A stretch of 64,000 nt of DNA, taken from the NCBI GenBank assembly GCA_902588585.1, contig CACIPQ010000003.1, forward strand, positions 62,001 to 126,000, read 5' to 3'. The position numbers and the translations under genes are program-made. Every line of letters starts with the position of its first letter. The stretch's first letter is position 1. The notes beneath the pieces are model-generated. The model worked only from the letters and a program-made list of their open reading frames with translations. It was not told where the DNA came from and did no database searches. Shown piece by piece: positions 44,557-46,704 of the stretch. This DNA is from an uncultured Pelagibacteraceae bacterium. GTDB lineage: Bacteria > Pseudomonadota > Alphaproteobacteria > Pelagibacterales > Pelagibacteraceae.

Positions 44557-45486
44557 ATGAAAATTTTAGGGGTTGGAAATGCAATAGTAGATGTCATCTG
44601 CAAAGTGGATGATAATTTCTTGACTAAAAATAATCTTACTAAAAGTACAATGAAATTAGTTGATGAAAAAGAATTTAAAAGTCTATTATCCAATTTGAAA
44701 ATTGAAGAAACGGTCGCAGGTGGATCTGTTGCGAATTCTATTGTAGGTCTTGCGCAACTAGGAAACGATGTAGGTTTTATTGGTAAAGTTAATGATGATG
44801 AACTCGGCAACAAATATGAAGAGGGTTTGAGAAAAGAAAAAGTAAAATACTTTTATTCAAAGAAAAAAGAAAAATTACCCACCGGAACTTGTTTAATTTT
44901 AATAACTCCTGACTCAGAAAGAACTATGTGTGTTTTTTTAGGGATTGCAGGGGAAATTAGTGAAAATGATATTGATGTCAATATTATTAAAAAAAGTGAA
45001 ATAATTTTTTTAGAAGGCTATCTTTGGGACAAAGGTAATCCAAAAAAAGCATTCGAAAAAGCTATCAAAAACTCAAACAAAGTTGCAATGTCATTATCTG
45101 ATAAATTTTGTGTCGATAGGCACAAATCTCATTTTCTAGATTTGGTAAAAAATAAATTGGATATTACGTTTGCAAATGAGCAGGAAATTTTATCTCTAAT
45201 AAATGCTAAAAATTTTGATGAAGTAATTTCTTTTGGAAAAAATCTTGGAAAGTTAATTATTATAACTCGAGGAGAAAAGGGTAGTATAGGAATACATAAA
45301 GATAATTTGGTTGAATGTGATATTCAAAAAAATTTAAAAATTGTTGACTTAACAGGTGCTGGTGATCTTTTTGCTGCTGGATTTTTAAACGGCTATATAA
45401 ATAATTTTTCATTAAAAGAGAGTCTTGAAAAGGGCACCGAAATGTCTTCAAGAATTATCCAAAAAATTGGAGCTAGGCTTTCTTAA
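44557..45486 (+). CDS. PfkB-family carbohydrate/nucleoside kinase
   Basis: Ribokinase-fold kinase of 309 residues with the first signature GGSVANSIVGLAQLGNDVGFIGKV (key part GGSVANSI near residue 50) and the second signature DLTGAGDLFAAGFLNGY with the catalytic Asp near residue 270. The N-terminus MKILGVGNAIVDVICKV resembles adenosine kinase-like proteins of Alphaproteobacteria. Substrate is probably adenosine or a sugar; the sequence alone does not decide. The last 14 bp overlap the convergent ArfA-like gene. Confidence 0.88.
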   Translation: MKILGVGNAIVDVICKVDDNFLTKNNLTKSTMKLVDEKEFKSLLSNLKIEETVAGGSVANSIVGLAQLGNDVGFIGKVNDDELGNKYEEGLRKEKVKYFYSKKKEKLPTGTCLILITPDSERTMCVFLGIAGEISENDIDVNIIKKSEIIFLEGYLWDKGNPKKAFEKAIKNSNKVAMSLSDKFCVDRHKSHFLDLVKNKLDITFANEQEILSLINAKNFDEVISFGKNLGKLIIITRGEKGSIGIHKDNLVECDIQKNLKIVDLTGAGDLFAAGFLNGYINNFSLKESLEKGTEMSSRIIQKIGARLS

Positions 45487-45589
45487 ACTTCTTCCTACTG
45501 TAGCTACCTTTTCCCTTTTTAGGTTTTACAATACGTTTTTGATATTTTTTTGAAAATAAATCTTTAGCAAAAATATTTCTTTTTTTCAC
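45473..45589 (-). CDS. arfA: ArfA-like alternative ribosome-rescue factor (38 aa)
   Basis: A tiny basic protein starting at GTG 45589: MKKRNIFAKDLFSKKYQKR, then IVKPKKGKGSYSRKKFKKA. The stretch KKGKGSYxRK matches the core motif of E. coli ArfA (KKGKGSYMRK), preceded in both by a Phe/Tyr-Arg/Gln-Arg-Val type segment. ArfA recruits RF2 to ribosomes stalled on mRNA without a stop codon, as a backup to tmRNA. The GTG overlaps the stop of the upstream regulator (GTGA), and AAGGA lies 8 nt before it. Unlike E. coli ArfA it lacks the long hydrophobic tail and ends in a normal stop, 14 bp inside the convergent kinase gene. Confidence 0.75.
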   Translation of the reverse strand: MKKRNIFAKDLFSKKYQKRIVKPKKGKGSYSRKKFKKA

Positions 45590-46218
45590 AAAGAATATCC
45601 TTCTTTGGAATTCTTTATAAAATCGTTATCGTTAAAGTGACTTTTTATTTTTTGCCTTAATCTATAAATATGAGTCTCAATAGTGTGGGTTTCCGTTTCT
45701 GATGAATATTTCCAGATATTTTTCAATATATAGTCTCGACTTAAGGGCTTGTTAGAAAAATATAACATTTCAAGAAAAATAACCTCTTTTTCTGTAACTT
45801 TAAGGATTGTATCATTTTTTTTTAAAACTCTTGAATTTTTATCAAGAATATAATTTTTGATTTTTATTAAAGAATTTTTCTTAAATTCATGCTTCTTGCA
45901 TATGTCTATAATATCTTGATTAAATTGAACCACATTAAGTGGTAGTTTTACAATCAGCGAAAAATCATCTTTAAATTTATTTATTTTATTATTTTTTTGA
46001 ATAAGTATTTTAGGAATCATTATATCTTGTAACAAAATTTTTTTTTCATTTTCTAGTTCTACAATTATGGCATTAAATTTTCCATCTATTAAATCTTTGT
46101 TATTAATGTTTTTTGATATCAGGTTAAATCCAAAAAACGATTTTATTTCTTCTAAAGACTTAGTAAAATTTTCATTGCAAAAGCATGCAACGTTAATATT
46201 GTAGGTCTCGTTATGCAT
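45586..46218 (-). CDS. Atypical OmpR/PhoB-type response regulator with degenerate receiver
   Basis: DNA-binding protein of 210 residues. The C-terminal part (about 118-210) is an OmpR-type winged helix: VTEKEVIFLEML, SRDYILKNIWKYSS and THTIETHIYRLRQKI. The N-terminal receiver-like part has lost the acidic pair (CFCNEN at 12-17), and the phospho-acceptor position reads Glu55 in AIIVELEN, while Lys92 is kept. It may therefore work without phosphorylation. No histidine kinase is adjacent. It is translationally coupled to the ArfA-like ORF and shares the hexamer ATGCAT with the start of the divergent L,D-transpeptidase. Confidence 0.82.
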   Translation of the reverse strand: MHNETYNINVACFCNENFTKSLEEIKSFFGFNLISKNINNKDLIDGKFNAIIVELENEKKILLQDIMIPKILIQKNNKINKFKDDFSLIVKLPLNVVQFNQDIIDICKKHEFKKNSLIKIKNYILDKNSRVLKKNDTILKVTEKEVIFLEMLYFSNKPLSRDYILKNIWKYSSETETHTIETHIYRLRQKIKSHFNDNDFIKNSKEGYSL

Positions 46219-46704
46219 ATATATTTAAAAAAAAAAATTCTTTATTTTAAGGATTATAGGATAAAATGCTCAATAGGTAAAAGGGGTTTAACTTCAAGAA
46301 AAAGAGAGGGTGATCTCAAAACTCCTAAGGGAAAATTCAAATTTAACCTCTTATTTTATAGAGCAGATAGAATCAAAAATATTCGCACAAAAATCAAAAG
46401 AAAAAAAATTAGAAGAAATTTTGGGTGGTGTGATGATCCATATTCAAAATGGTATAATAAATTAATTCGTTTCCCATTTAAAAAAAGCGCTGAAAAATTA
46501 TACTTAAGAAACAACATGTATGATTTAATATTGGTTTTAAATTTTAATACAAAACCAGTGATTAAAAATAAAGGTAGTGCAATATTTCTACATATTGCAA
46601 ATAAAAAATTTAACCCCACAAAAGGATGTATTGCTATACAAAAAAAAGATTTAATTAAAATTTTGCCTTATATTACAAAAAAAACAAAAATCTATATTAC
46701 TTAA
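46213..46704 (+). CDS. L,D-transpeptidase (YkuD domain)
   Basis: Cysteine transpeptidase that forms 3-3 links in peptidoglycan or attaches proteins to it. The 163 residues contain the catalytic pattern His127 (FLHIAN) ... TKGCIAI with Cys139, and the substrate-loop-like KREGDLKTPKG near residue 30. No signal peptide or membrane helix is evident at the N-terminus, odd for a periplasmic enzyme; the known cytoplasm-to-periplasm route is unclear. Its ATG is part of ATGCAT, which also encodes the start of the divergent regulator. Converges with yggS by an 8-bp overlap. Confidence 0.87.
   Translation: MHIYLKKKILYFKDYRIKCSIGKRGLTSRKREGDLKTPKGKFKFNLLFYRADRIKNIRTKIKRKKIRRNFGWCDDPYSKWYNKLIRFPFKKSAEKLYLRNNMYDLILVLNFNTKPVIKNKGSAIFLHIANKKFNPTKGCIAIQKKDLIKILPYITKKTKIYIT

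Follow-up and report, generated by a model that had tools for sequence, protein, structure and literature searches.

The 38-codon open reading frame described here, located in the window (i.e., the whole stretch of 64,000 nucleotides that was analysed), encodes a real, conserved and overlooked ArfA of SAR11, a group counted among the most abundant cells of the sea; the arrangement of its gene differs from that of E. coli arfA, and the same probably applies to its regulation. The explanation that best accounts for the data as a whole, and that we regard as quite likely, is that of a widespread SAR11 ArfA that recruits RF2, is encoded by a stop-terminated gene and acts beside tmRNA/SmpB; the expression of the gene, the binding of its product to the ribosome and to RF2, the rescue activity and the regulation by the neighbouring gene are parts of this explanation that we infer. 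The larger point is the occurrence of ArfA in most Pelagibacteraceae, within a class reported to be without it and in an order apparently free of ArfB.

The gene, whose product reads MKKRNIFAKDLFSKKYQKRIVKPKKGKGSYSRKKFKKA (38 aa), belongs to a genome of 992 kb (86.6% complete) and its features are collected in Table 1. A preliminary description had placed an ORF at these positions without giving its strand; the ORF is indeed present and is to be read on the minus strand, the plus-strand frame of the same segment not being open. The GTG start, the KKGKGSYSRK core, the AAGGA 8 nt upstream and the GTGA overlap with the regulator gene can all be read in the sequence as described there.

Table 1. 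Position and strand of the arfA-like gene, of its presumed functional elements and of the two genes that overlap it
Feature	Position in the window	Strand	Details
arfA-like gene	45473..45589	minus	38 codons; start GTG at 45589, stop TAG
KKGKGSYSRK, putative mRNA-channel motif (residues 24-33)	45491..45520	minus	KKGKGS and R32 in 122/122 loci; F/Y at position 30 in 122/122
Putative RF2-contacting half (residues 5-21)	45527..45577	minus	N5 (E. coli N14), L11, Y16 (F25), R19 (R28)
GTGA, 4-nt overlap of the arfA start with the regulator stop (TGA)	45586..45589	minus	
AAGGA, Shine-Dalgarno-like, 8 nt before GTG	45598..45602	minus	Within the regulator coding sequence; read from the sequence
Atypical OmpR-type regulator, 210 aa	45586..46218	minus	DNA-binding winged helix at residues 139-208, preceded by a receiver-like fold
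pfkB-type sugar/adenosine kinase gene	44557..45486	plus	Convergent; 3′ end overlaps arfA by 14 nt (45473-45486)

At the Shine-Dalgarno-like site GGA is found in 41 of 122 loci, the corresponding number for a control stretch being 5 of 122; the conservation of AAGGA is weak evidence, since the same letters encode the K-x-G-Y of the regulator C-terminus. A promoter and terminator scan of the region returned promoter matches not above chance expectation, and an Rfam scan gave no match in the arfA region. In this genome a stem-loop of about -14 kcal/mol (45577-45634) spans the ribosome-binding site and the start codon of arfA; it was rejected as a conserved element, 17 close relatives folding at -1 to -9.

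The kinship with ArfA is clear. The product matches the Pfam ArfA model (PF03889) with 28.2 bits, above the gathering score of 25.5 (E = 1.3e-6), which bears out the identity originally proposed for it, and 29 of 29 aligned SAR11 relatives match this model and no other family; no NCBIfam model matches the 38-aa ORF, and the best sequence matches among PDB structures are all ArfA chains of ribosome complexes. In a profile-profile comparison with an ArfA set that is called gammaproteobacterial by its sequence likeness to the ArfA of Enterobacterales, Pasteurellaceae, Vibrionaceae and Pseudomonas, the SAR11 family attains a probability of 97% over 34 columns and a score of 50.4, the scores of 200 column shuffles being at most 13.9. 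The ungapped alignment from SAR11 to E. coli equates N5 with N14, L11 with L20, Y16 with F25, R19 with R28, Y30 with Y39 and R32 with R41. All residues that are invariant in the gammaproteobacterial set (N14, F25, KGKGS, Y39 and R41) are kept in each of the 122 distinct loci of SAR11, both aromatic places being taken by Y or F; the equivalent of N14 is N throughout, that of F25 is Y in 117 loci and F in 5, and the mRNA-channel motif KGKGS-[YF]-x-R is invariant. Over the same loci N5, L11, P23, KKGKGS and R32 do not vary, and every protein has Y or F at position 16; the assignment of residues 5-21 is based on N5, L11 and the aromatic at 16, all three present in 122/122, on R or K at 19, and on the alignment with the gammaproteobacterial ArfA profile. 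By homology, the 38-aa ORF thus truly belongs to the ArfA family and is presumably endowed with rescue activity.

The main departure from the E. coli paradigm concerns the end of the gene. In E. coli a terminator and an RNase III site located before the arfA stop codon give rise to a nonstop mRNA, and active protein builds up only when trans-translation fails (PMC6299226). When 120 nt from the core motif were compared with dinucleotide-preserving shuffles, the gammaproteobacterial-type loci (n = 18) gave a mean z of -3.8, whereas no hairpin was found near the SAR11 arfA core (mean z 0.07 over 121 loci, one of which below -2). The SAR11 ORF stops 11-23 codons (median 12) past the start of KKGKGS, and the comparison ORFs from outside SAR11 extend 21-47 codons from the core. 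Because the stop is an ordinary one and no terminator-like hairpin is present, active protein is expected to arise from a normal mRNA alongside working trans-translation; judging from these sequence features, SAR11 ArfA probably is translated in the normal way and recruits RF2 for rescue, and is not a backup induced by the loss of trans-translation. The nonstop-mRNA switch is considered to be what makes ArfA a pure backup; a version of the factor devoid of this switch offers a direct test of why two rescue systems persist. The small size, to which attention was drawn at first, is real but not new, ArfT consisting of 40 aa, mature E. coli ArfA of 52-55 aa (PMC6299226) and several of the gammaproteobacterial arfA ORFs found here of about 50 aa; the real difference is an ORF that ends just past the core without the RNA hairpin by which the nonstop message is made. 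In two loci of other proteobacteria (L186 and L188) the arfA ORF also stops before the hairpin, so that stop-terminated ArfA may occur outside SAR11 as well and not be unique to it.

A mechanism can be envisaged in which a basic peptide of 35-40 aa would enter ribosomes that have come to a halt at the 3′ end of a stop-less mRNA. Its KKGKGS-[YF]-x-R tail would fill the vacant mRNA channel, and the N-terminal half, with residues N5, L11 and Y16, would dock onto RF2; the RF2 so recruited would then free the nascent chain, and SAR11 ArfA would operate beside tmRNA/SmpB, not as a backup induced by their failure. Since a rescue factor is of little effect in a foreign species (PMC6881298), homology alone is no proof of RF2 pairing. 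In the E. coli complex F25 occupies a pocket of RF2 made of V198 and F217, a contact with no counterpart in ArfT (PMC6299226). The RF2 of the genome (L033) has SGVHRLVRISPF (GVHRLVRISPF) and RRHTSF, so that both pocket residues are kept, and in its RF1 (L032) an A stands where F217 would be, the pocket residue being absent (the numbering is our own count from the SPF motif, and the residue roles are taken from PMC6299226).

A similar outcome could be reached in the manner of Francisella tularensis ArfT, i.e., by a short factor that recruits RF1 or RF2 and has converged on an ArfA-like basic tail. ArfT is indeed of similar size (about 40 aa), has a basic C-terminal tail and an ordinary stop, and its gene contains neither an RNase III site nor an in-gene terminator (PMC6299226), the SAR11 arfA being likewise hairpin-less. 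However, ArfT reads KKGGSTNKK and has no hydrophobic residue at the place of F25, whereas in SAR11 the KKGKGS is invariant and the aromatic is Y or F in 122/122; furthermore, the ArfA match lies above the cut-off, the profile match to ArfA lies far beyond that of the shuffles and the RF1 of the same genome is without the F217 pocket residue, and we give an ArfT-like mode little credit. Bacillus subtilis BrfA, another short RF2-recruiting rescue factor, is set apart by its description, having N-terminal helices without ArfA counterpart and originating from a nonstop mRNA (PMC6881298).

The second alternative is that the protein derives from ArfA but has become a basic RNA-binding or ribosome-associated protein whose rescue role is lost, for instance a mere occupier of the ribosome. 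The enterobacterial subgroup of ArfA has a small residue at position 18, most members of the gammaproteobacterial set having A or S there, and the E. coli A18T variant binds RF2 without activating it (PMC8012679); in SAR11 this position, according to the ungapped alignment, is mostly K, and the activating contact must for this reason be a different one. The SAR11 protein is also without about nine N-terminal residues, which belong to a segment that takes on order when the E. coli complex is active. This K and the shortened N-terminus, together with the lack of the gene in some genomes, are in keeping with a lost rescue role; on the other hand, the RF2-facing aromatic and the equivalents of N14 and L20 vary no more than the channel motif does, ArfB is apparently absent and the RF2 pocket is kept, and such a loss appears as improbable as an ArfT-like mode.

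The remaining rescue repertoire of the order is consistent with an active RF2-recruiting ArfA. SmpB is present in the genome, and tmRNA was found in 223 of the 247 genomes of the order, this one included. No ArfB was seen, the RF-1-family proteins never exceeding two per genome in the same 247 genomes; the search used PF00472, the domain by which Pfam represents ArfB and which we assume to be capable of detecting it. ArfB, carried by 2,022 of 2,376 genomes, is the usual alternative rescue factor of the Alphaproteobacteria (PMC11633108), and from these gene contents ArfA seems to be the one that replaces it in this lineage. The presence of arfA is not linked to the loss of tmRNA, which was undetected in 11 of 156 arfA-containing and in 1 of 38 arfA-less Pelagibacteraceae (p = 0.47). 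The tmRNA search gave two or three matches in many SAR11 genomes and only a weak one in G157, G204 and G232; the additional matches may be remnants of integrating elements.

As to the distribution of the gene, the PF03889 search of the 247 genomes gave matches in 155 at E ≤ 0.001, 86 of which above the gathering cut-off. A home-made profile (A1), built from 29 SAR11 sequences, the window ORF among them, gave matches in 160 and recognised the arfA of the genome under study with E = 2.7e-18, its own sequence being part of the profile. In four of the 160 (G009, G054, G027 and G089) the match is a DUF7230-like ORF, which leaves 156 genomes with canonical ArfA, i.e., 156 of 194 genomes of the same family (80%) and none of 53 of the sister family, both totals being our own count among the 247 sampled. 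The named relatives among the matches listed are all Pelagibacteraceae/Pelagibacterales, including Ca. Pelagibacter ubique HIMB058, and in a search of public genomes at least 406 of 598 candidate stretches were confirmed. Across 140 loci, 122 of them distinct, the protein has 34-46 aa. Being missing from about 20% of the Pelagibacteraceae and from all 53 sister-family genomes sampled, arfA must be dispensable in places.

Where dN/dS could be computed, i.e., where synonymous sites are unsaturated, its pairwise values for the window gene against the relatives nearest to it are 0.01-0.08 (0.01-0.13 against the 20 nearest); for pN/pS the figures are 0.16 within the close clade and 0.23 when all pairs are taken. 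Since the same residues are specified by several codons, selection acts on the protein. Of the three checks suggested at the outset, the ArfA HMM match has been given above; the other two, namely conservation of the ORF in close relatives and the ratio of synonymous to non-synonymous changes, have given a syntenic family present in 156/194 genomes and a strong purifying selection, so that all three came out in favour of the gene. Though short, it is family-wide in the Pelagibacteraceae and not an isolated minimal gene. That the ORF is a chance product arising where the regulator gene ends, short, overlapping two genes and lysine-rich through the AT-richness of the genome, is refuted by these dN/dS values and by the family-wide conservation, as well as by the separate location of the gene in genus g2 and by relatives in GC-rich alphaproteobacteria and in viruses, and deserves virtually no credence.

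The synteny itself is remarkably regular. The regulator gene lies upstream of arfA in 116 of 122 loci and the pfkB-type kinase gene, named from a reading of its sequence with no family search behind the name, converges on it in 119 of 122. The arfA start and the regulator stop share the exact 4-nt overlap in 76 of 122 loci and abut in 18 more, i.e., 94 of 122 together, the start codons having been picked nearest to the regulator stop with an ensuing bias towards small distances. The overlap and the synteny suggest that translation of arfA is probably coupled to that of the preceding regulator gene. The regulator is of the OmpR type, as had been surmised, with a Trans_reg_C match of 48.1 bits; a Pfam search for a receiver family found no match in it, and its AlphaFold model (mean pLDDT 84.9) displays a receiver-like fold for which Foldseek retrieves KdpE, RitR and CosR (E about 1e-9 to 1e-8). 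Its acceptor position 54 is occupied by H, D, E or a gap and there is no conserved site, unlike in a phosphorylatable receiver. The divergent gene that follows (46213..46704, plus strand) has a predicted ATG start overlapping that of the regulator (46213-46218) and leaves, as called, no intergenic promoter space.

The further proposal that arfA is under the control of this regulator is put in doubt by two observations. In 16 arfA-less Pelagibacteraceae examined (L151-L166) the regulator gene still adjoins the kinase gene and only arfA is missing, and in genus g2 arfA is found elsewhere, between genes that by eye are transporter-like and photolyase-like, with no regulator nearby. Of the preliminary interpretation taken as a whole, the ArfA kinship, the shortness and the regulator overlap stand; the shortness as such is not new, the control by the regulator is a conjecture, and the gene is a family-wide one.

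With gammaproteobacterial ArfA (PF03889) the SAR11 protein shares the N14 and F25 equivalents, the KGKGS-[YF]-x-R motif and the RF2 pocket in its partner, and with E. coli arfA a 3′ end that converges on a neighbour gene, mscL in the latter case (PMC10070815); it differs in its 34-46 aa, in the stop about 12 codons past the KKGKGS start with no hairpin, in the K at A18 and the shorter N-terminus, in the start overlapping a regulator stop and in the alphaproteobacterial host. Concerning this last point, ArfA has been described as confined to some of the beta- and gammaproteobacteria (PMC6881298), a survey published in 2023, which applied the Pfam model to annotated proteomes, reported that the Alphaproteobacteria are without arfA (PMC10070815), and Callan et al. 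(2024) found it by nucleotide profile in 0 of 2,376 genomes of the class (PMC11633108). We found no earlier description of ArfA in SAR11 cells in a literature search that left most subscription papers uncovered. Surveys from annotated proteins or nucleotide profiles overlook such genes, as had been predicted of annotation in this case: the annotated-proteome survey reports no alphaproteobacterial arfA, yet 156/194 Pelagibacteraceae carry it.

Outside SAR11, PF03889 is matched in 7 of about 380 alphaproteobacterial genomes, two of which belong to a single genus and agree in their sequences, and two of which are 7-10% contaminated; the ORFs concerned (L144-L150) follow the pattern N[PV].A[KR]..L....[FY]....[VI]..[KR]KG[KR]. 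A profile of SAR11 and non-SAR11 ArfA (A2) also gathers ORFs that have the same first half and end in ...KK-xYxRK, being three residues shorter. Short basic ORFs with the shortened motif are L287, L289-L294 and L296-L299. With DUF7230 (PF23876) one of the shortened-motif ORFs scores 42.8 bits, one is at the cut-off of 27 and two are below. This family, for which no function is described, resembles SAR11 ArfA in its N-terminal half, NP[IV]A[KR]xL..P.[FY]....[VI][VI], and differs in being three residues shorter inside the KGKGS part of the motif. Compared as profiles, the DUF7230-like set scores 46.9 with SAR11 ArfA (shuffles at most 21.0) and 26.6 with gammaproteobacterial ArfA (shuffles at most 18.8), results favoured by the gathering of the set with an ArfA-containing profile. 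The comparison links the alphaproteobacterial ArfA clade to DUF7230 and is a lead, DUF7230 being a possible second ArfA-like clade; the link also supplies a hypothesis for the function of this family.

Within the order, DUF7230-like ORFs occur only in arfA-less genomes (4/91 vs 0/156, p = 0.018), a fifth being G003. DUF7230 as a general replacement of arfA was rejected, the complete arfA-less genome G005 having neither, and a plasmid search for DUF7230 gave no match. It is conceivable, albeit rather doubtful, that the Alphaproteobacteria possess a stop-terminated ArfA clade of their own with DUF7230 as its sister, the latter being an unrecognised RF2-dependent rescue factor that replaces ArfA in certain relatives of SAR11 and elsewhere among the alphaproteobacteria; in such a scheme DUF7230 would have lost part of KGKGS and kept the RF2-facing half, which would make it a second RF2-dependent rescue factor.

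ArfA-type proteins are known from alphaproteobacterial viruses, namely gp30 of pelagiphage HTVC027P, annotated as ArfA with PF03889, and that of Citromicrobium phage vB_CbaS-RXM (PMC12753301); these are viral genes, whereas the SAR11 gene is chromosomal and adjoins a regulator. In IMG/VR at least 241 stretches encode ArfA relatives, mostly of 33-48 aa with the same motif, and these similarities make an exchange of arfA between marine phages and their hosts plausible. A phage search with the SAR11 protein gave weak matches only, low-complexity filtering probably masking the basic tail; the match in Pelagibacter phage HTVC115P covers query residues 1-21 only and lies inside a larger gene. The marine viral relatives of IMG/VR are on contigs L197-L276, and those of L197-L200 differ very little from the protein of the SAR11 host.
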